Positions 2,626-61,346 of a DNA stretch of 64,000 bases are shown here, piece after piece; the first letter of the stretch is position 1; each line of letters begins with the position of its first letter. The translations under genes and the position numbers were made by a program. Where the stretch lies: positions 682,001 to 746,000 of the forward strand of contig NC_089449.1 in NCBI RefSeq assembly GCF_026210795.1. The letters are read 5' to 3'. The notes beneath the pieces were generated by a model. It worked only from the letters and a program-made list of their open reading frames with translations, ran no database searches and had not been told where the DNA came from. Origin of the DNA: Rhizophagus irregularis. Its lineage: Eukaryota > Glomeromycota > Glomeromycetes > Glomerales > Glomeraceae.

Positions 2626-3757
2626 AAATCGGCAAAGTTAAAATATAATTATTTATGACTGATGAATAAACAGTCGGTTCGCCTTATAACGAAGTTGGTT
2701 TCCGGAACAGGGATGGCAAATGACATTGTTATTTGATCAATTCCAAATGATATCAATTCATTTCCAAGCGATATCAATTCATTTCAAAATGACATCATTT
2801 TGTCATACTGAATCTGCCAAGGTTAAAGTAAAATTTAAAATTAAATCAGGCCAAAATTTAGCAAGTAGCTGGTGTAAACCAAAATCTCAGCCAGCATTAG
2901 GATCACATAACTCAAAAGACATAAATGATGTGGCCTTCATTATCTACTATATTCAGTATATTGGTATGTATATGATATAAATTCATATAATTCTCGTATT
3001 TTGTATAACGTATGTCACACAAGATATCTTTGTTAAATTAATTTTCGTTATAAGGAAAAATCTGTTGCAATAAGGTCATTTCCATTCGTTATACAAAGTA
3101 TTAAAAAATTCGTTAAAATCAAAATTGGGGAAATTAACATCCGAGTCACGCTTTCATAAGTTTACAACGTACATTATGTACTAACTAAAGTAATAAAAAA
3201 ATACAAGAAACCATTATAAACTTAGTTGCATGTAATTGTTCTAAATGTAACAGGAAAATTGGTTAATTCTCGTACGAAAAAAACCATGAAATAATAAGTG
3301 ATTTAGATGATTCAAAAGATATTACTTTTACCAACAATAAATCTGCCTAATGAACCATCTCAAAATAATGGAAAGTACTTATGTTATCCGAATTAATTTT
3401 AAAATTGTCAAAGTTTGGAAACCAATATTATTTGGTCACACGCGTCAACATAAATAATTACTACGAAAAAATCCGGCTTTCAAAACCTTAACAACATATT
3501 AGAAATTTCGACCTATTTTAAAATCACAACTACTTATTTTTGATAATTAATAATTTTTTCACATTAAATACTTTTTAATAATTATTATTTTTAAAAGATG
3601 ATTATTTTATTTATCTGGGAAAGAAGATAAAGTATAGATTAAAAAAAATATATTGAAATAAAATAAAAAAAAAATTTAATATATAATTAAACCCGCTAAT
3701 GTATGTCTCAAATTTTTTACACTAAATCAAACATTAATTAAGTAAAGGCAAAGAATT
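2626..3757. other. intergenic DNA with short ATGACAT-type repeats
   Basis: Around 2720-2800 there are repeated ATATCAATTCATTTC and AAATGACAT motifs; a related AAATGACAT cluster lies at 37765-37845. The remainder, which is the 3' flank of the dioxygenase gene, is plain AT-rich DNA. Confidence 0.4.
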
Positions 3758-5937
3758 TTATGATAATTTAGGCTCCTCATAATCGAACTTCTTCCATAAG
3801 TCACCTCCACGATTTTGCAAATTCTTTTTGGTCTGCGAGGGTGTAGTAAACGGAAATAAAGCCCAAGCAGAATTTTCTTTGTAAACGTTAGGTACATGTC
3901 TCAAGATGAGTTTATGTAAAATTCCTCCAGAAGACATATCATTTGGATCGCTTTGAATTTCATTCCAGCCCCAGGTTGTTAAGTTTCGTGGAGTGAGATC
4001 ATTCGTATAGAAGCGATCGTTTCGTACAAGATTAACCGCATCTGATAGAATAGCGCGACTGATGGTAAATGGAAGCGCGATTGCTGAACCGAGAACAGCA
4101 GGCTTCGTTTTTTCTGTCATGAGACCAGGATACAATTCGACATTTTCTACATGTCCATAAAGTTCTTCGAGTTTTTCCGCTACCTTTGGATCAGGATTCA
4201 TTTCCTTAAATGTATCATAAGGCTTCAAGTTTAAGGACCGACGAAAATCGTTGAGACTACTTAATCCCAAAGATCTAGCTGATTCAATGCCGAGAAGCTC
4301 AATAGGACGGAAAACTTTATTAACGCGATTTGCTCCAAAAGCACCTGTCCAACATGATGCAACCAATTATTAGTTTTCATAAATAAAGATGATAAATATT
4401 ATGAATAATAAATTATACTAGTTCCTTACCTGAAACTTTCCTTGTTCCACCAATGATCTCTTTTGCAATATCAGTATCTTTGAAACGGGTATCACTTCCT
4501 CTTTCTATATCATTAAACTTCCATTTGGATGGCTCTTTGGGTATTGATCTCTTCCAAGTAGACATCTTTTCCCTGAATTTATCAATAGCTATCTATTATA
4601 TAGAATAATAATGTTAATACGTGCTGGTCCTTTTTAAATTGGAAGGAATAATTAATCATAAAAGTTAAAAATGCTTACATTTTCCCAATCATCTCCAAAA
4701 ATCGTTTTGAACTCATCTACAACATATTTTGTATCATCTTCTGAGACAGCTGGATGCCATCGATAGATGTAGTTGAACTCTAAAGAGACTATATTTCCGG
4801 ATCCAGAAGGTAAGGCATCAAGTTGCCCTGTTTTATTATATGGCACTGTAGGATCAACGAACCAAGTTGAAGCAGTTTGATCGAGACCAAGGATAGTACG
4901 AAGGTAATTATGAAGGATTATATTAATATAAAATCCACAATTAATCAATCGTGCGGTTTGAAAGAGGTCTTCATCTTGCTTTTTGAGTTGTTCAGGATCA
5001 TTTTGATTCTTAACGCTGAATCGTCCTAGCTCATTTTTTTCAAGAAGAGTTTGTGCAATATAATTATGATTTCGCGAAAAAAGTATTAACAAAGCAGATA
5101 CGCCGGGTGGTTGTAACAGGATTCGTGAATCAGCAAATGTATCAGGTTTTAAGAGTCCAGATTTAAAGGCGCGAATAGACTTTAATTGTTCATCATTATT
5201 TCCATACAATGGAGTGAGGTCAAGGTATGAAGAAGTAAGGTTGATGGTAGGATCAGCGAAGCTGGTATGGAATAAATCGTGAGTGATGATTATGGCCAAA
5301 TAGAATAACATTGAACTGATTCCAGATGGATGTTCCACGAATTCTCCCTCTTGAACCATTAGTTTATCAAAGATATCTTCTGCTTTGGGAAGGACTGTGA
5401 GTTTAATAGGGTACTGAATACGGGATGTAAGCGAATATTTGCTATTAGCTTTTCCAAGTGATTGGATGATCCTGTTGTAACCGGAACCATCAGAACTGCG
5501 ATACATGTCACCAGCGATCATAATAGGTGGTTTAGCGATGTCATGCCATAGTTGTGTAACCAATAGCCTACTCAAGAGTGACAAAATTTTTTCGCCTTCA
5601 GGAGTATTAGGAATATGGGTCAAAGCTGTAATGTATATTTCCAACTAATAATAACAATAATATTATTAGAATTATTAATATATATATATATAAATATATA
5701 TATATAGAAACTAAGTCAAAAAAAAAAATCTATTTTGTCCTTTACCTCCAAGTGAGAATCGTCTACAGGTAATTTTGGTATAAGAAATATCTTGAATAAA
5801 TCAATCAATTTATACTTGAGGGTAATATGTTTATCTGGAATTGGTTCATTAAGACCTAAAAGATATTGTACAACTTTAGATTCTATTTCATCATCAGTTG
5901 ATTTTTGAAATAATCCTGATAATCCTCTTAAAGACAT
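3758..5937 (-). CDS. haem-dependent fatty-acid dioxygenase (Ppo / linoleate diol synthase-like)
   Basis: Four exons join in frame: 5937-5746, 5644-4679, 4592-4430 and 4344-3758, giving 635 residues. The protein belongs to the animal-type haem peroxidase fold used by fungal Ppo and linoleate diol synthases, which oxygenate unsaturated fatty acids to oxylipin signals. Visible family motifs are HDLFHT (distal haem His), SSYLDLTPLYG, RNHNYIAQTLL, EFNYIYRWHP (catalytic Tyr and proximal His) and ELYPGL near the C terminus. Introns have GT-AG ends; exon 1 ends at GAG|GTAAAG. The length corresponds to the dioxygenase half only: the C-terminal P450-type domain of the classical bifunctional enzymes is absent and the stop is clean. 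The first product should therefore be a hydroperoxide without the coupled isomerase step. The family call is firm; substrate and product are inferred. Confidence 0.88.
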
Positions 5938-8297
5938 TGTGTAAGATAAAATTGTGTAAGGTAAAATGAAATTAAAGAATTTTTTTTTTTGAAGGACGAT
6001 GAAGAAAACATCAAGCGGTTTTTATAGATTGTTCGAGTATTCTATCTTAACCGGATATAGAATAGATTATCATAATAAATGGCCATTAATTAAAAATAGT
6101 AATTTTATATACAAAAAACTCGGATAGAATTTCATTTATGGAATAAGCTTATACCGTAATCCATAAAAGTATAAAAATATAATTCCTCAAAGTCCGATCT
6201 GACGATCCAATTTTACTTTTAATGTTTGGTCAATTTTTAGTTAATTTAGTCAAATTTAATTATACTTTTAGATGATCAAATCGGTTCGGATCATAGTTTT
6301 TCTTAATGTATTTACACCCGGTGTGGCACAAAATGTTGGCCGGTGAGTACGAATTCACATGATTACGTGAATTTCTTTTGTGTATGTGAAATTTTTTGTT
6401 GGATTGTTTCAAATAATTTGGTAATGATTGTAATTTGACGATTGTATAACCAAACTAAATTGCATGAAACATTTTCTCAAATCTTATTTATTTAAAGAAT
6501 TCCTTTAAAGAAAAATCTCTCACCCGAAAGTAAATCTTTAACAACAATACTTAAAAAGTAAGACAAAAAGACAAAAAGACAATTATATACTATATTTAAT
6601 GATACATTACTCACAATGATATTTCGTTTCACAAGGCTGTGCAACATTAAAAATAGTGGGATTTATTATAAAAGGAAAATTTCATGCGCCTAACAACTTT
6701 TTACTCTTTTTCCCTCCAAACAAATTGTATTATCAAGAATGCCAATGTATCAAACAATTCGTCATAATAGAAATGTAACCTTATCCAGGTAAAAATAATA
6801 GGCTACTATTGTTCTAAAATTATTGTATTTGAAAATCTTTTCCGATTGTTAATAGTCTAAAACTAAAATAGTAACGGTTAAACAAATATAGTTTGAAATA
6901 TTTCGAATTATTCATATGGAATTGAGTTTTGCTTTTTTCATTGTATGTCATTTCTGTCTTCTATGAATTCCTTTTTTTAGGAATAATATACCAAAATGGT
7001 TTCATTTTGAAAGAGTAAATTAAATAAGCACGTTTTTCTCACTCATACAAAACAGGTAAGGAATCGTGTTACGAATATTTTTATCTTGAAAGTTAGTGGC
7101 GGCTTATTATCCATATTAAGTGACAATTTGCGTTAGGATTATTCGCTGTTAAATGGTGTGAATGTTTTTTATTCATAATAATTAACATCTTTTTTTGGGT
7201 AAATGTAACTTTTATCGTATTCACAAATAGAACTAAACAAGAAAGAACATCTGTTTCCTAAAGAGAAAAAATGACAACAATATAAAAATATGATGCTTTA
7301 TGCTAAATCAAATGTTAAATCGGTGTAATGTTTCCGGCGCAATGGGAAATTATTTATTATGATGTAGAAGAGAACATAATACGTAAAGATAACGAATTTT
7401 CAGTAATCAATTACGTACTAAATATTTTGCTAATTTTATTATTTTTAGTGATTATAGATAATAATGGTTTATATTGTTATATTTAATTGGGAATTTAATA
7501 AAGAGAATTTATTAATAAAATCAAAGCGATACTTTCAAGCTTTCTTTTATTGAAATAGATTTTATTGATATACCATCAGACCTCAATATACCGGTATTCG
7601 ATATATCGATATATATTAAAAACATAACGATATTTTCAATGATTTTCACATGGATCCCAGCGTTGTATCGGAGTTGATCCCAATATCTATCTTTATTTCT
7701 TCTTTTTTTAAAAAAAATACCCTGAATACATCGTGCTATTAATCGGATATCTAATAGAGTGTTCTTATCATATCCTCGTGTTATTAAAACATGCACATGG
7801 CGATGAATTATTATAGCAATGCCTTCCTTTTCTAACTTGATTAAAAATGTGATTTCATAAATAGTCGTCAACCTAAATATAATTAAGAAAGGATTAGCTC
7901 TCATTCATTGTTGATGTAATATAGAGATTGTTTTGATTGGTTCCTAAATAAACTATTGAAATTTATTGAACTTGTAACCATAATAGCCTTTCATATTCTT
8001 TTTATGGAACAATCAAACCGATTTTACAACGTTCCTATTGTACAGAATTAAATCTTTCGCTCTTTGAAAATTTCTTTTACGAATCATTTCACACGCAATG
8101 AAACCAATATCCTTTTACTTTTACCAGAAAATTTAAATAAATTATCATTATCGTAAAACTCATCATATTTTTCACCGCCTATATACATTCATTATTGTCT
8201 TTGAAAAGAAGGAATTTTATATATAAGAAATATTCACATTGTAATTCAATGAAGGAAGTATATCAAACAAAGTAAACATTGCGTTAAGAACTTGCGT
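5938..8297. other. AT-rich intergenic DNA
   Basis: Upstream region of the dioxygenase gene. A short AAGACAAAAAGACAAAAAGAC repeat-like tract is at about 6560-6583. A minus-strand frame of 127 codons at 7521-7904 is not protein-like enough to call. Confidence 0.4.
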
Positions 8298-8338: not shown

Positions 8339-8639
8339 TTAAATTCGGATCATAATCAAAATATAAAAATTCCGGAAAAAAAGACTCGTTATTCTTGTAA
8401 ATAATCAAAATTTAAAAATTCCGGCCGGAATCCGTTTTTCCAAAAAAATTTGAAGGGATTAAAAAAAAGGTTTGCTCTAAGCATTTTTATCTTGGCTTTC
8501 TGACATTTTCGAATTAGAAGTATTAGAAGTAAAAAATTTATTAATGCCTTTTTTTATATACGAATAGAATAAATTATGTTTCAAATTATTGTGCAAAAGA
8601 GAATATTTTTGTTGAATTGATGCAATGCGTAAAACTTAC

Positions 8640-8994
8640 CAATTTCTAAAGATTATCCAAGTGAAGGATGAACGGATCGTAACACCGCCTCATACCAATC
8701 TTTAAAGATTATCCAAGTGATAGATGAACGGATCGTAACACACGCTTCGTACCAATCTCTAAGATTATCCAAGTGACGGATGAACGGATCGTAACACCGC
8801 TTCGTACCAATTTCTAGATTATCCAAGTGACGGATGAACGGATCGTCTAAAGATTATCCAAGTGACAAATGAATGGATCGTAACACCATTCCATACCAAC
8901 CTCTAGAGATTACCCAAGTGACGGATGAACGGATCGTAACACCGCTTCGTACCAATCTCTAAAGACTATCCAAGTGACGGATGAACACCGCATT
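8640..8994. repeat. ~58-bp tandem minisatellite, about 6-7 copies
   Basis: Each unit contains GATTATCCAAGTGACGGATG followed by AACGGATCGTAACACCGC and TTCGTACCAATCTCTAAA. Copies differ by a few substitutions, and one copy (about 8820-8850) is truncated after GGATCGT. The block is more GC-rich than its surroundings and has no long open frame. Function is unknown. Confidence 0.92.
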
Positions 8995-51595: not shown

Positions 51596-54500
51596 ATGGC
51601 TCACAGTAATAATGAAGGTAAAAAGCATATAGTATGAGTATTTAATATAAATTAGAATTATTCTAAATTTTCTAATCAAATTGCAATAAGTTTTAAGTAC
51701 CGAGGAAATTAAAGGTAATTATAATATATTAAATTGTAAATAATTTAAATATTATAATTGTATATTATGCAATAATTTAATATTAATTATATCAAATAAT
51801 TTATTTAGTTTGTAAGTTAATAGAGTTATCTTATAATTGAATAATAATGGAATTACTTATTTTTGTTATATTCTAATGTAACTAAATAATTAATGATTAA
51901 TAATACTATAGTTAGTAAGTATCAGCTGTTTAATTTTTTTATTTTAATTTACACAATATTTAAATAACTAAATTTTTTTGAATAACTATTAATAATTAAT
52001 TATATTACAGAAGGTAAGTTTCAATTTATAATAATATTATATTTATTTGTTTAATATTTTATATAATTCAACTAATTATATATTCTTTACTTAAATGATA
52101 AGATTGTGAGTAATATATCTGATTCATAATATAGTTTTGTATCATATTTAATCCTACTAACAAATTAATAATAATTAATAATACTACAGGGTGTAAGTTA
52201 TATGTTATTAATATTTTTATCATTATATAATTTAAACTGACTGAATTCTTTATTTAAAAATTTTTTGGTAATTTCTTTTAGTTGGTAAGTTATAAGTTTA
52301 TTTATTAAATTCTATTATTATAAATTTATATAATATTTAAACAAACAAACTAAATTCTTTATTTAAAAAATTATTTAAAATATAGAGAGTGAGTTATTTA
52401 TTTAATTCTATTATTATATATTCATATATTATTTATGTATAATTTAAACTAACCAAATTATTTATTTTAATAATATAGGAAGTAAGTTATTTATTTAATT
52501 CTATTATTACATATTTTATAATATTTGCATATAATTTAAACTATCCAAATTCTTTATTTGAAAATTATTTTTTAGAATGTGAGTTATTTATTTAATTCTA
52601 TTATTATATGTTTATATAATAATTAGATTAATCAAATCCTTTATTTAATAATTATTTAATAATATAGTTTGTAAGTTATTTATTTAATTCTATTATTACA
52701 TATTTATAATAATTGCATATGATTAAAATAACTAATTCTTCATTTAAAAAATTATTTAATAATATAGGGGGTAAGTTATTTATTTAATTATACAATTACA
52801 TATTTTATATAATTTAAATTAACTGAATCCTTTTTAATAAAATAGATTGTAAGTTATTTATTTAATTCTATTATTATATGTTTATATACAATTTAAACTA
52901 ACGAATTCTGTATTTTATAGATCGTAAGTTATAAGTTATTTATTTAATTCTATTATTACATATTTATATAATACAGTGAACATCTCTCTAAGTGCACCCC
53001 TTGGGACCATAGTAAAAAAATAGTAGAATGTGCTCTTAGAGAGGGTGTGCATTTATAAAGAGTAAAATATTAAGAGCTTTTATAAGTTGGGACCAGTCAA
53101 ACCATGCACTTAAAGAGAATTTATATAGTGCATGCACTTATAGAGAGTGCACTCATAGAGGTGTCGCTGTATTTGCATTTAATTTAAATTAACCCAATTG
53201 GCCAATTCTTTATTTAAAAAATTATTCAATAATAATATAGGGAGTAAGTTATTTATTAATTCTGATTACATATTTGTTATATTTACATATGATTTAACTA
53301 ATTCTTTATTTGAAAAACCACAAATTATTTTATAATTTAGGTAGTAAGTTATTTATATAATGCTATTTGCAAGTAATTTAACTAATTATTAAAAAATATT
53401 GGTAAATTATTTTAGATGGTAAGTTATAACTTATTTATTTAATTTTATTTTTATTAGGGTTGCAGACATTAGAACATAAACTAATATAAGTCAAGACGTA
53501 ACTGAGTAGTTACCCAAAATTTATATGACGTAACTGGGTAGTTATCCTTAACAGAAGAAATGTCTGCAACCAAAATTTTTATATATTTATATTATATTTA
53601 AACTAACTAAATTCTTTATATTATAGATTGTAAGTTATTTATTTATATCCTATTATGCTTTTACTTCAAATCACCGGGGATGATCATCACCTTTGGCCAG
53701 AATTATCAATTTTTACTGGCACTATATTTTTTTAATGCTGGTGATCATCATAATTTCAGTCACCGGTGATCATCACCCCGGTGATAGTTAGAAAAATTCT
53801 TCTATTATTATATATTTGTGATATATTTACATATAATTTAAGCTAATTAAATTCTTTATTTGAAAAATTATAGATCGTAAGTTATCTATTTAATTCCATT
53901 ACTATTTATTCCATTATATATAATTTAAACTAAATTTTGCTAATTTCTTTTAGATTGTAAGTTATAAGTTATTTATTTGATTTCATTATTATTTACTATT
54001 TATATATTATTAAAATTGAATTCTCTATTTAAAAATTATTTGCTAATTTCTTTAAGATGGTAAGTTAATAAGTTATTTATTTAAATTTATTATTACATAT
54101 TTATATTATAATTAAAACTAAATTCTTTATTTAAAAAATTATTTGCTAATTTCTTTTAGATCATGGTAATAATTTATTTAATTTCATATTTTCATTATTG
54201 CATATTGTATTTATATAATATTACATGTAATTTAAACTAAATTCATTATTTGATAATTTCTTTTAGATGGTAAGTTAATAGATTATTTATTTAATTTATT
54301 ATTGCATATTTATACAATATTTAAGCTAAATTCTTTATTTAAAAATTATTGATAATTTATTTTAGAAAGTAAGTTGTAAGTTATTTACTATTTTATTTAA
54401 TTATATTATTACATATTTTTGTATAATTAAATTAATTAAATTCTTTATTTTAATAATATAGGTTGTAAATTGTTTATTTAATTCTATTATTATATGTTTA

Positions 54501-57500
54501 TAATTTATTTACATATAATTTAAACTAATTAAATTCTTTATTTAAATATTATTTAATAAATAGAAAGTAAGTTATTTATTAAATTCTACTATTAAATATT
54601 TATATATAATATTTATAATATTTACATATAATTTAACTAATTAAATTCTTTATTAAAAAATTATTTAATAAATAGGGAGTAAGTTATTTATTTAATTCTA
54701 TCTATTATTAGTACATATTTATATAATATTACATATAATTTAAACTAACTAAATTATTATTATATATTTATATATAATACTAAATTCAATTTTTAATAAT
54801 ATAGTTTGTAAGTTATTTATTTAATTTTATTATTATATATTATATAATTTAAATTAATTAAAATTCTTTATTTAAAAAAATTATTTAAAATACAGGTTGT
54901 AAGTTTAGTTATTTATTTAATTTTATTAATATTACATATTTATAATATATTTATATATAATTTAACTAATTTAATTATTTATATTTAATAATATAGCTTG
55001 TAAGTTATTTATTTAGTATATTTATATAATGTCTACTTATATAGTAATTTACATAATTTAAACTAAACTATATTCTTCATTTAAAAAATTATTTAATAAT
55101 ATAGTTTGTAAGTTATTTATTTAATTTATTATTACATATCAATAATATATTTATATAAAATTTAAATTAACTAAATTCATTATTTAATTAATAATATAGC
55201 TGGTAAGTAATTTATTTAATATATTTACAGTATATTATATTAGCATGTATCAAATTTAAATTAACTAAATCCTTTATTTTAAATAATATAGGCTGTAAGT
55301 TATTTATTTAATTCTATTGTTATATATTTATAATATACATAAACTAATTAAATTCTTTAATTTAAAAATATAGGGGGTGAGTTATTTATTTAAATTTATT
55401 ATTATACATTATATTTATTATATTGTATTGTAAATTAAACTAACTAAATCCATATCATTATTTAAAAATTATTTAATAACTGATAATATAGTTTGTAAGT
55501 TATTTATTTAATTATATTATTATACATTTGTATATAGTATTTGATATAATTTAAGCTAATTAAATTTTTTATTTAATTTGGTAATATAGTTTGTAAGTTT
55601 ATATTTAATTAACTCTTTAACAAAATATTTTATTTATAATTTAAACTTATTAAATTTTTTATTTTAAAAAATTATTTATAATATAGTAAGTAAGTTATTT
55701 TAATACCATTATTACATAATTATGTAATATTTATAAACAATTTAAACAAAAAAAATCCTTTATTTAAAAAATTATTTGGTAATTTCTTTAGTTGGTAAGT
55801 TATAAGATATTGATATAGGGAGTTGTAAGTTATTATCTGATTTTATTTTTATATATTTATATCATACTAAATTTTTTATTTAAAAATTATTTAATAATGT
55901 AGTGTATTGTAAGTTATTATTTAATTTTGTGATTTTATTATTATTATTTATTAATATAATTCAAATTAACTAAATTTTTTATTAAAAAATTATTTAATAA
56001 TATATAGCAATTAGTAAGTTATTTAATTTTATTATTACATATTATTTATTTATAATATATTTGCATATAATTAAACTAACAAAATTCTTTGTTTAAAAAA
56101 TAATTTGGTAATTTTATTTAGTTCGTAAGTTATAAATTATTTATTTAATTCTATTATTAGTTTCATTATTATTAAACAAACTAAATTCTTTATTTAATTT
56201 AATAATATAGTTTGTAAGTTATTTGTTTGAGTTTATTTAATACTTACATAAAATTTAAACTGACTAAATTCTTTAATTAAAAATCATTTAAATAATATAG
56301 TTTGTAAGTTATTTATTTAATTTTATTATTATATATTTTTGTATAATTTATGCTAATTAAATTCTATTTGAAAAAATCTTTAATAATATAGCTAGTAAGT
56401 TGTTTATTTTAATTCTATTATTTTATATTTGTAATATATTTAATCTAACTAAATTCTTTATTTAATAATATAGTTTGTAAGTTGTTTATTTATTTCTATT
56501 ATAACATAATTATAATATATTTATATATATATAACAAACTAAATTCTTTATTTAATTTAATAATATAGATTGTAAGTTGTTTATTTTACTCTATTATTTA
56601 TTAAATATGTTTACATATATTTAAACTAACTAAATTTTAATTATATAGATTGTAAGTTATTAATTTAATTCTATTAATATATATTTATGAATATTCATGT
56701 ATAATTTAAATTAACTAAATTTTTTATTTAAAAAATATTTAATATAGTCTGTAAGTTGTTTTTTTTAATTCTATTATAATATATTTACATATAATTAAAA
56801 CTAACTAAATTCTTATTTAAAAAAAATTATTTAATAATATAGTTTGTAAGTTGTTTATTTAATTCTATTCTTACATAATTACAATATATTTACATATAAT
56901 TTAAACTAACTAAATTCTTTACTTAATTTAATAATATAGATTGTAAGTTTTCCATTATTATATAATATTGTGATTTACATAATTTAAACTAACTAAATTT
57001 TTATTTAAAAAATTACTTTATAATATAGTTGGTAAGTTATATTTATAAAATGCTCATATTATTTAAACTGACTAATTCTTTATTTAAAAATTGTTTAATA
57101 ATGTAGTTTGTAAGTTATTTATTCAATTTTATTATTACATTTTTATATGATATTTACATATAATTTAAACTAACTAAATTCTTTATTTTTGGTAATTTCT
57201 TATAGTTAGTAAGTTATTTATTTAATCCTATCATTACATAATTATATATGATTTAAACCAACTAAATTATTTATCTTAAAAAAAATTATTTAACAAATAT
57301 AGAGAGTAAGTCATTAATTTAATTTACTGTATTACTACATATTTATATAATATTTACACTAAATTATTTATCTTAAAAATTATTTAACAATATAGAGGGT
57401 AAGTCATTAATTTAATTTTATTATTACATATTTATATAATATTTACACTAAATTTTTTTTAAAAAATTATTAATAACCTAGAATGTAAGTTATTTATCTA

Positions 57501-60500
57501 ATTTTATTATGATAGATTTATACATATAAGTTAAACTAAATTATTTTATAACATATAGGGAGTAAGTTATTTATTTGATTTCACTATTGCATATTTATAT
57601 TATATTTGCATTATATTTGCATATAATTTAATTAAATTTCAACAAATAATTAAATAATATAGCTTGTAAGTTATTCATTTAATTCTATTATTGTATTTAT
57701 ATTTACTTATAAACTAACTAAATTCTTTATTTATAAAAATTATTTAATGAATAGTTAGTAAGTTGTTTAATTCTATTATTGTATATTTATAATATTTATA
57801 TATAATTTAAACCAACAAATTTGCTAATTGTTTTTTGAAAAAAATTATTCAATAATATAGTTCGTAAGTTGTTAATTTAATTATTATTGCTTATTTATTT
57901 AATATTTATGTATAATTTAAACTAAATGAATTCTTTATTTAAAAAATTATGAATGATTTATTTTAGTTGGTAAGTTATAAGTTATTTATTTAATTCTATT
58001 ATTATATATTTACAATGTATATATAATTTATACTAAATTCATTTAAAAATTACTTAATAATATTAGGGTCTGGTAAGTTATTTAATTCTATTATTACATA
58101 TTATTTATTTATATATAATTTAAACTAACTAAATTCTTTGTTTAAAAAAACTATTTGACAATTTTATTTTAGCGTGTAAGTTATAAGTCATTTATTAATG
58201 ATTCAGTCTATTATTATACATAATTTAAACTTACTAAATTCTTTATTTTGGTGATTTATTTTAGTTGGTAAGTTATTATTTAATTATTTAATTTATTATT
58301 ATCAGTGTATGAAATCTATTTGTGGAATTTGTAGAGTGCACATTATGCAACTTTCAATTTAAAAATATTAACATATCTGTGCACAAAATCAAGTTTATTT
58401 TCAACAAATTGCATGCAACTTTTTTTTATATGCAATAACTATTTTACTTGAATTTCATATGCTGATTATTATACATAATTTAAATTGACTAAATTTTTTA
58501 TTTAAAAATTTATTTGATAACCTAGAATGTAAGTTATTTATTTAATTTTATTATTATATATTTATAATATATTTACTAAATTCTTTATCTAAAAAAATTA
58601 TTTAATAATATAGATTGTAAGTTATTCAATTTTTTATTACATATTTATATATATACTAGTAATTTGACTAAGTGAATTAATTCTTAGTTATTTGGTAATT
58701 TTTTAGATGGCAAGTTATAAGTTATTTTTTTGGTTCTATTATTATATGTATATAATATATATATATATAATTCAAACTAATTAAAGTCTTTATTTAAAAA
58801 TAATTTAATAATATAGTTTGTAGGTTATTTATTTAATTTTATTATATATATTTATATTTGCATATGATTTAAGCTAACAAAATTCTTTATTTAAAATTTT
58901 ATTTGGTAATTCCTTTTTTTAGATGGTAAGTTATAAGTTATTTATTTAATTGTATTATTATATATCTATGTATAATTTAAATTAATTAAATTGTTTATCT
59001 AAAAAAATATTTAATAATACAGATAGTAAGTTATTTATTTAATTTTATTATTATATTATATTTGCATATAATTTGTTAACTAAATTCTTTATTTGAAAAA
59101 ATTATTAGGATGTAAGTTATGTATTTAATTTTATTATTGTATATTTATATAATATTTACATAATATAATTCAAATTAACTAAATTTTTTACTTAAAAAAT
59201 TATTTAATAATATAGGGCGTTGTAAGTTATCATCTGATCTTATTATTATGTTTCTGTATAATCTAACTAAAAATTTTTATTTAAAAAATTATTTAATAAC
59301 ATAGCATCTTGTAAGTTATTATTTTATTTTATTATTATTTATTTATATCATTCAAATTAATTAAATTTTTATTTAAAAAATTATTTAATAATACAGATAG
59401 CAGTAAGTTATTATTTAACTTTATTATTATATATTTATATAAATCAAAGCTAACTAAATTTTTTAAATTATTTAATAATATAGAGTATAGTAAGTTGTTA
59501 TTTGATTTTTATTATATATTTATATAATATGTACTGTATATAATTAAAGCTAACTATATTCCTCGTTTAAAAATAATTGTTAGAGTGTAAGTTATTTATT
59601 TCTACTATTATTATATATTTATATTATGTTCACATATATTTTAAACTAACTAAATTCCTTATTTTAAAATAAAATTATTAGGGTGTAAGTTATTTATTTA
59701 ATTTTATTGTTATATATTTATATAATGTTTATATAATTTAAACTACTAACTAAACTCTTTATTTAAAAAATTATTTAATAATATAGCATGTAAGTTATTA
59801 GTTATTTCTTTTAGTATATATATTTATAAATTTATTTTAGCTATAATTTTAGTTAACTGAATTTTTATTTGAAAAACCATCTGTTATTTTAGTTGGTAAG
59901 TTATTAAATATAGGTTATTCTATATATATGTACAAAAACTAAATTTATATTTTATTAAATCCCTGTTTAAATTTTAGAGTAAGTATTAATATTAATTTTT
60001 TCTAATTATAAACTTTGATAATTAACTTTAATATAATTTTAATTATTTAAATTTATAGATTTGGAAGAAGTGGAGAAATGATTTTGGATAGATTTATTTG
60101 TGATAGAAATTTAAAATGGATTCCTTATGATCAATTTACAAATATTAAATATTTTGATAAGGGAGGATTTAGTGTTATATACAAAGCTAATTGGTTAAAT
60201 AATGAAAATAAAGAAATAATTTTCAAATGTTATAATAATTTAAGCGAAAATTTAAATGAATTCTTAAATGAAGTATGAATAGCATATTATTTACTTATTT
60301 TTAATCTAAATTATAATTTATTTATACTAATATTATATTATTATTTTTTATAGTGGGAATATCATAAACGTTGTTTAAATTCAATTGATATTATTAAATT
60401 TTATGGATTTACAAGAAATCCAGATACTTTGAATTATATGGTGGTAATAGATTATGCGAACAAAGGTAATTTGAGAGGAAATTTAACAAAAATAATCAAA

Positions 60501-61346
60501 AAAAATTGGAAACAAAAATTACATAAGTTATACGAAATTATTTCTGGACTTAGTAAGATACATAGAGAAGATCTTATTCATTGTGATTTTCATGATGGTA
60601 ATATTTTAATTCATGTGGAAAGTGATGAAGATAAAATTTTTATTAGTGATTTAGGATTATGTCGACCTGTAAAATCATTTTTGAAAAAAGATGATATTTA
60701 TGGTGTTATACCATTTATGGCACCTGAAATTTTAAGAGGCAAATCTTATACTCCAGCTAGTGATATATATAGTTTTTCTATGATTATGTGGGAATTTACA
60801 TCCGGAGTACCACCATTCAATAATAGAGCACATGATATTCAACTTAGTATAAGTATTTGTAAAGGTGAGCGCCCTGAAATTATCGAAAATACTCCACAAT
60901 GTTACGTAGATTTGATGAAAATGTGTTGGAATGAAGATCCATTAAAAAGGCCATCTTCTAGAGAAGTTTTAGATATTGTTGGAGAATGGATTTTTTTTCC
61001 TGAAAATGGTATAATGAATAAAGGATTAAAATCTAACGTTATGGAATTTATAAATGCACCAATTGGGCCTAACAATCTCGCTACTGAATCTCATCCACAA
61101 GTATATTATATAAGTCGCTTACTTAATTTTAGTAGTAAAGAATTGAACGAAACTCTTAAAAGTAAAGATTTACAAACATATTATGCAAGTCATTCTACTA
61201 GTGGAAAAGTGGATGAAATGCTGATAAGTTTTGAAAGTGAAGATTTACAATCATATTATGCAAGTCAATCTACTAGTGGAAAAGTGAATGAAATACCAGT
61301 TAGTGAAGATTTAGATGATTGTATAATTATAGACATAAATGATTAG
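51596..61346 (+). CDS. tyrosine-kinase-like protein kinase whose N terminus is encoded by ~80 codon-sized exons
   Basis: Proposed model: exon 51596-51617, exon 51691-51714, then about 80 exons of 3, 6 or 1 nt (51809 to 59978), then 60059-60272 and 60354-61346. Lengths before the kinase exon sum to 311 nt, so its first base completes a codon and the frame enters FGRSGEMILDRF directly; about 505 residues in all. The start MAHSNNEVLSTEEIK is hydrophilic, then VFKDWFERKFWDY..., and a 19-residue hydrophobic stretch VFLIGSLYSIILFSIYYFF followed by KK. Kinase: GGFSVIYKA loop, Lys in IIFKC, HCDFHDGNIL (D and N), DLG in ISDLGLC, MAPEIL, SDIYSFSMIMWE. The tail has two ~22-residue repeats (DLQTYYASHSTSGK / DLQSYYASQSTSGK). 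Kinase exons are firm; the micro-exon part is inference. One TAA (exons at 54462/54564) must be skipped. Confidence 0.65.
52972..53171. mobile_element. MITE inside a micro-exon intron (TACAGTGAACATCTCT termini)
   Basis: Ends TACAGTGAACATCTCTCTAA and (reversed) TACAGCGACACCTCTATGAG with TA flanks; several internal CTCTTAGAGAG/CACTTATAGAG pairs. It enlarges one intron to 317 nt without touching donor, branch site or acceptor. Confidence 0.85.
53458..53571. mobile_element. MITE inside a micro-exon intron (GGTTGCAGACATT termini)
   Basis: Perfect 13-bp inverted ends GGTTGCAGACATT / AATGTCTGCAACC and an internal pair GACGTAACTGAGTAGTTA / GACGTAACTGGGTAGTTA (direct repeat). Lies within the intron between exons 53416 and 53627. 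Confidence 0.85.
53670..53785. mobile_element. MITE inside a micro-exon intron (ATCACCGGGG termini)
   Basis: Inverted ends ATCACCGGGG / CCCCGGTGAT with GATGATCATCACC-type internal pairs; in the intron between exons 53627 and 53874. Confidence 0.85.
58301..58466. mobile_element. MITE inside a micro-exon intron (ATCAGTGTATGAAAT termini)
   Basis: Inverted ends ATCAGTGTATGAAAT / ATTTCATATGCTGAT; fills the intron between exons 58265 and 58526, leaving the splice signals intact. Confidence 0.8.

Follow-up and report, generated by a model that had tools for sequence, protein, structure and literature searches.

Arrays of single-codon exons as the predicted N-terminal coding regions of a protein kinase family in Rhizophagus irregularis

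How could a gene be read if nearly every codon of one of its regions were set apart by an intron of its own? The question is raised by a locus of the fungus Rhizophagus irregularis lying in a stretch of 64,000 nucleotides (nt) of contig NC_089449.1 (assembly GCF_026210795.1, positions 682,001 to 746,000 of the forward strand), hereafter the window, whose numbering we use for this locus. Here, a long tandem array of exons, most of them of three nucleotides, is preceded by two small leader exons and followed by a protein kinase. From the sequence, we infer that the array encodes the N-terminal part of the protein kinase, with about one spliceosomal intron per codon, and that its exons are joined in order. 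We put the probability of this reading at about 0.88. A preliminary description of the locus had already proposed codon-sized exons, phase-1 introns, and a kinase at the end of the array. These proposals are supported by the avoidance of stop codons at ordered neighbour joins, by a recurrent exon of one nucleotide, and by many further arrays in the genome.

All exons of the window gene are on the forward strand. Leader exon 1 (51596-51617, 22 nt) reads ATGGCTCACAGTAATAATGAAG, encodes MAHSNNE, and ends in phase 1; its counterparts in the array-bearing loci L011, L012, L016, L018, L026, and L034 are alike. Leader exon 2 (51691-51714, 24 nt, V-LSTEEIK) leads from phase 1 to phase 1; its acceptor AATAAG looks weak, but by eye its start resembles that of exon 2 of L012. 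The array itself occupies 51809-59978, in units mostly of about 100 bp, and holds 80 micro-exons: 70 of 3 nt, nine of 6 nt, and one of 1 nt. These are exactly the counts given in the preliminary description, recovered from a donor listing and from the joined gene. The dinucleotide AG directly precedes each of the 80 micro-exons, and the donor starts with GTAAGT in 72 of them. The remaining donors are GTGAGT in four cases (52106, 52389, 52579, and 55377) and, once each, GTAATA (54166), GTAAAT (54465), GTAGGT (58820), and GCAAGT (58710). The micro-exons of 6 nt comprise ATCATG (54160-54165, donor GTAATA) and, from the donor list and the joined gene, three consecutive ones (55819-55824, 55903-55908, and 56008-56013), GGTCTG (58067-58072), and four consecutive ones across 59216-59489 (starts 59216, 59305, 59397, and 59484). 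The exon of one nucleotide closes the array (59978-59978, TTTTAG-A-GTAAGT) and leads from phase 1 to phase 2. It is followed by kinase exon 1 (60059-60272), which begins FGRSGEMILDRFICDRNLKWIPYDQF, and by kinase exon 2 (60354-61346, stop codon included), which matches Pfam PF07714 with E=6.1e-32. Joining the two leader exons, the 80 micro-exons, and the two kinase exons gives 505 codons and then the final stop. The kinase is entered in frame, and one internal TAA is counted among the 505, which reproduces the earlier statement that the joined reading is open except for a single TAA. Inserts are found within the array introns at 52970-53170, 53455-53580, 53665-53790, and 58300-58470, some of them with inverted-repeat ends like those of small transposable elements (by eye).

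The locus had been presented as a single gene. The window gene stands, but it is not alone: the unit pattern TAATAATATAGNNNGTAAGTTATT, with a gap of exactly 3 nt, has 579 exact matches across the genome (327+252), and none in the reversed-pattern control. When the gap was allowed to vary, using TAATAATATAG-N{0,13}-GTAAGTTATT, there were 586 matches, 579 of them with a gap of exactly 3, and again none in the reversed control. Chance was thus rejected as the cause of the 3-nt spacing. The gap of 0-13 also serves as a matrix-free check, since the splice-site matrices used for scoring were trained on sites with a 3-nt gap. With these matrices, 36 loci were scored without any preference for exon length and 33 gave chained sites, after leaving out sites below the score thresholds or with no neighbour within 135 nt; the scored set does not include L001-L008 and L029, whose stretches are of about 3 kb. 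In the 33 loci, 1,390 of 1,424 micro-exons have 3 nt, and the others have 1 nt (17), 4 nt (2), 6 nt (12), 7 nt (1), or 10 nt (2).

The places pooled from four pattern searches form at least 73 clusters on 20 contigs, some of them mere fragments. Among the kinases listed, one lies within 9 kb downstream and on the same strand in at least 49 of the 73 clusters, and upstream in 1 of 73. This count scored L009, L010, and L011 as lacking a listed kinase, yet they carry one. The arrays of L024 and L027 reach the end of their stretches, and kinases are listed just past it. By eye, a related kinase open reading frame follows 17 of the first 20 arrays examined. Conversely, L045 was chosen as a kinase away from any listed array place, and an array is present there too. 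Array sizes vary: L021 has 26 micro-exons, L030 has 39, all of 3 nt and with an open reading, and L034 and L035 together have 139, all of 3 nt and without an adjacent stop. The latter array reads as IEKEIEKE-like repeats, which we would expect to be helical. The micro-exon architecture is common to a large kinase family of R. irregularis, and the reading proposed for this family is very likely right. Lone array fragments of about 100-300 bp, made of intron parts and one to three exons in flanks without units, were seen in four of nine sampled isolated places (L036, L039, L043, and L044), and a further unit match for L019 lies beyond its stretch, at C4:5874936.

How would such arrays be expressed? 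All array introns would be in phase 1, i.e., between the first and second bases of a codon. Each 3-nt exon would then complete one codon with its first two bases and open the following codon with its third, and the final 1-nt exon would shift the phase for the correct reading of the kinase exon. The spliceosome would remove the introns of about 97 nt one after another, because the two ends of an exon as short as 3 nt can hardly be occupied simultaneously. The predicted product is a kinase with a variable N-terminal segment, a candidate region for sensing or for binding partners.

For a phase-1 translation of the joined exons to stay open, no exon ending in T may precede one starting with AA, AG, or GA. 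Among the 1,245 adjacent phase-1 joins of the 33 scored loci with chained sites, we found 2 stops, against 47.3 expected from shuffles of the exons within arrays (standard deviation 5.2, minimum 30 in 2,000 shuffles). The same neighbours taken in reverse order show no depletion (49 stops vs 47.5 expected), and the phase-2 reading of the same 1,245 joins has 179 stops. No adjacent stop is present in 29 of the 31 arrays with at least 10 joins, the exceptions being the window and L038; the second stop, in L038, leaves the depletion as strong. Duplicated units were considered as a cause of stop avoidance and rejected, since the depletion persists once near-duplicate introns are removed (21 arrays, 0 stops in 333 joins vs 17.3 expected, standard deviation 3.1, minimum 7 in 5,000). 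Smaller tests gave 0 of 699, 0 of 855, and, in 26 arrays, 1 of 1,128. The first two excluded the window join GTT-AAA, whose weak exon fell under the threshold, whereas the count of 1,245 takes in later loci, including L038. As the bases concerned are about 100 nt apart in the DNA and meet only in spliced RNA, we take the depletion as evidence of ordered splicing and of translation under selection.

The joins that skip exons bear on whether the order is fixed. In combinatorial splicing, every micro-exon would be optional and each gene would produce many N-termini, as reported for the nank genes of truffles. This precedent speaks for such a mechanism, as does the fact that phase-1 exons whose length is a multiple of three can be skipped without a frameshift; moreover, skipping the weak-donor exon of the window would remove its stop. 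Joins that skip one exon have 37 stops in 1,104 (41.0 expected), and those that skip two, three, or five have 45 in 979 (35.7 expected), 29 in 873 (33.0), and 31 in 703 (27.9), hence no clear selection for readability. Joins skipping four exons are borderline low, with 23 stops in 783 vs 31.1 expected, a value reached by 43 of 1,000 shuffles. Since the skip joins lack a clear depletion, optional skipping has probably not been selected for, and we regard combinatorial splicing as unlikely.

The same data bear on another account, in which the array is a minisatellite within one long intron and the mature mRNA runs from the leader exons to the kinase with all 3-nt pieces removed. The units are indeed tandem, AT-rich, and partly near-identical, there are inserts among them that resemble transposable elements by eye, and three public protein models (P0036, P0041, and P0025) run the leader exons nearly straight into the kinase. 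In a minisatellite, however, nothing would account for the avoidance of T before AA, AG, or GA across an intron of about 100 nt, between neighbours only and in one direction only. Besides, when the array and the 1-nt exon are removed, exon 2 of the window (phase 1) is out of frame with the kinase exon (phase 2). We consider this account very improbable.

The exon of one nucleotide ties the array to the kinase in the proposed ordered reading: where it is absent, a phase-1 array could not enter a phase-2 kinase exon in frame. A strict pattern for this exon, with a kinase exon in frame behind it, was matched in 20 of 25 loci, and L015 has it in addition. In this set, the arrays of L024 and L027 run off their stretch, and 22 of the remaining 23 have the 1-nt exon. 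The codon across it is a sense codon, mostly GAA, in all 21 arrays with a legible kinase exon. It is also present in L045, outside the set; L037-L042 were not covered by the search.

Several observations weigh against the ordered phase-1 reading. In the window, the micro-exon GTT (54462-54464) has a weak donor, GTAAATTG, with a score of 1.0 vs 12.6-16.1 in three neighbours, and when joined to AAA (54564-54566) it gives the sole in-frame stop of the array, a TAA at residue 41. The window copy, a family member whose reading is stopped once, at an exon with a weak donor, may be in decay or may leave this exon out. The stop of L038, ATT-AGA (1302-1395), lies between good splice sites. Adding weak exons to fill gaps makes L011 read two stops and L014 one, L045 reads one stop across a gap of 182 nt, and two micro-exons of L017 have 4 nt (GATT at 3471 and GGAA at 5743). 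Some arrays also end badly. In L010, which has the 1-nt exon, unrelated sequence interrupts the kinase exon from about position 5980, and this member looks broken. In the roughly 4 kb past the last unit of L019, neither a kinase nor a 1-nt exon was found, and L034 with L035 has no 1-nt exon before any kinase start, with only a kinase tail downstream. Finally, the start expected in phase 1 (DWF, DWY, or DWW) is absent from the 120 public models listed, as searched before WIPY or in the first 60 residues; several of these models begin at or near the kinase, and the three named above join the leader exons nearly straight to it.

Do public protein models then point to another reading? Two of them, P0076 and P0024 (the latter named R. 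diaphanus), contain strings, with LLM or MIG, that resemble the codons of micro-exons read in phase 0. This would fit an alternative in which the exons are spliced and read as whole codons, with a last exon AGTAA (Ser-Lys before FGKS) in place of the 1-nt exon. It would also fit the SK found before FG.S in 15 of the 120 listed models, and the observation that only 8 of 1,253 micro-exons are themselves stop codons. On the other hand, reading whole codons leaves the coupling between neighbours unexplained and fails to carry on from the reading of exon 1, and the donor it needs is, by eye, poorer than the adjacent GTAAGT. We hold it to be very unlikely. We treat P0036, P0041, P0025, P0076, and P0024 as products of gene prediction, which do not count as evidence on RNA. 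P0076 was dropped as evidence of splicing, as it has no identical genomic copy (best 93%), and the R. diaphanus record P0024 hints at arrays in a second species. When residues 1-95 of the spliced model of L016 were used as query, a single protein was retrieved, P0001, covering 28% of the query; the match begins at FGKSE, and the N-terminus of P0001 looks by eye like a translated intron. P0114 maps to L029/L031 at 98%, and its published N-terminus agrees with the exon list at two ends only (by eye). P0002, named R. irregularis DAOM 181602 = DAOM 197198, matches the spliced model of L021 with 100% identity over 91% of its length, and we take the genome to be of this strain or of one very near to it.

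Are the array introns ordinary ones? In 21 arrays, they have a median length of 97 nt and 11.5% G+C. The motif CTAAY is present in 653 of 913 introns, compared with 208 of 913 after shuffling, and the branch A lies at a median of 35 nt from the 3' end. With their GT-AG ends and this branch-site motif, they have the features of U2-type spliceosomal introns. Their evolution is decoupled from that of the exons. In 260 nearest-neighbour pairs of units with intron divergence below 2% (ends excluded), the introns differ at 109 of 17,778 sites and the following exons at 310 of 780. Among 213 pairs of near-identical introns (at most three differences, counted in both directions), both flanking exons are shared in 78, one in 70, and neither in 65, the chance of sharing one exon being 0.07. 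In L014, by contrast, a block of 15 units was duplicated together with its codons. Gene conversion limited to the introns, with codons kept by selection, would explain why introns and codons evolve apart, and so would the spread of the intron itself; both fit the data. Elsewhere in the window, at 8637-8986, there is a tandem array with a 56-bp unit that is unrelated to the micro-exons.

What protein would these genes encode? In the family, exon 1 is a short exon with an ATG that ends in phase 1 (MAHSNNE, MALSNDK, MDQCIGK, and similar). Some genes have, by eye, an acidic second exon; wherever it was placed in this way, its length is divisible by three. Most readable array starts are of the type (L)xDWF, DWY, DWW, or NWW, i.e., D/N-W-F/Y/W, and many arrays end with F before E-FGKSGN. 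In L012, L016, L017, L018, L020, L021, L023, L026, and L028, the spliced models run without an internal stop from the ATG until the kinase ends or the stretch does; these models include added weak exons, omit exons of 4 nt (two in L017), and lack the second leader exon except in L023 (3 nt). In the window, the joined peptide of 55374-57208 has a hydrophobic, putatively transmembrane stretch, with a 19-residue Kyte-Doolittle mean of 2.17 that is reached by none of 200 exon shuffles. Such order-dependent stretches (mean above 2.1, reached in 0 of 200 shuffles) occur in three of 23 scorable arrays, namely the window, L022, and L025, the other 20 all being below 1.1. Local duplication of units could add to hydrophobic runs.

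The C-terminal part is a kinase. A Pfam scan of three proteins gave PF07714 above the curated cut-off, with E-values of 6.1e-32 for exon 2 of the window and of 2.8e-45 and 8.2e-42 for two spliced models. It retrieved only kinase families in these three proteins, with no NACHT domain or ankyrin repeats. The catalytic loop of the window kinase, HCDFHDGN, keeps its Asp, as do 117 of the 120 listed relatives; of the other three, one has Asn and two depart from the loop pattern. The residue before this Asp is Cys in 108 of the 120, His in six, and Arg in three, and Tyr precedes the Asn of the remaining one. Kinases without Arg before the Asp, called non-RD kinases, are common among the immune receptors of plants, which we note as a possible lead.

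Taken further, these observations allow a broader picture that we put forward tentatively. The genes could form a family of receptor-like kinases whose N-terminus evolves codon by codon, while the spread or homogenisation of introns goes on without regard to the codons between them and arrays grow by duplications of several units that are safe for the frame. A spliceosome able to place thousands of 3-nt exons, and scores of exons of one nucleotide, in their order would then give one variable sensing segment per array, possibly for self/non-self or partner recognition.

If transcripts confirm the ordered reading, a eukaryote would routinely and accurately splice tens to about 140 three-nucleotide exons in a row, and one of a single nucleotide in addition, far past the supposed limits of exon recognition. 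The arrays would offer a natural system to study the ordered use of splice sites that lie 1-3 nt from each other. Many kinase genes of an important plant symbiont would have mis-modelled N-termini, which hide a possible variable recognition region. In addition, the near-identical introns between different codons make the spread or conversion of introns directly testable.

How do these arrays compare with known systems? Near-identical introns between unrelated codons, seen here within and between arrays, resemble the mobile introns called introners; regular spacing of 3 nt is not known to be one of their properties. R. irregularis and Tuber belong to different fungal phyla. The preliminary description knew of no array of single-codon exons on this scale. 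This has to be corrected, because dozens of 3-bp exons per gene have been reported in the NACHT-ankyrin (nank) NLR genes of Tuber melanosporum (Iotti et al. 2012; PMC4986451, PMC3689799, PMC9815663, PMC10197012). We found no description of such arrays in Rhizophagus in a literature search with most subscription journals and bioRxiv outside its coverage, which took in titles, the beginnings of abstracts, and passages of PMC10197012 and PMC10234402. By the reports on Tuber, both cases are fungal families with tens of tandem, codon-sized exons, and the nank class has a variable recognition region. The genes described here instead encode kinases with an N-terminal array, have up to 139 micro-exons in one locus, close with a 1-nt exon at nearly every array end examined, and seem to favour ordered joining. 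A constitutive exon of a single nucleotide between two introns, tested experimentally, is described for Arabidopsis APC11 (PMC4674806). It concerns one gene, whereas the predicted 1-nt exon recurs here at many array ends of a family. The micro-exon genes of schistosomes consist largely of very short exons, reportedly of 3-81 bp (PMC10526429); they have varied exon lengths, long introns, and secreted products, in contrast with the uniform single codons that precede a kinase here. Hence, arrays of 3-bp exons are not without precedent, and what appears to set those of R. irregularis apart is the gene family, the length of the arrays, and an ordered inclusion that is favoured over optional skipping.

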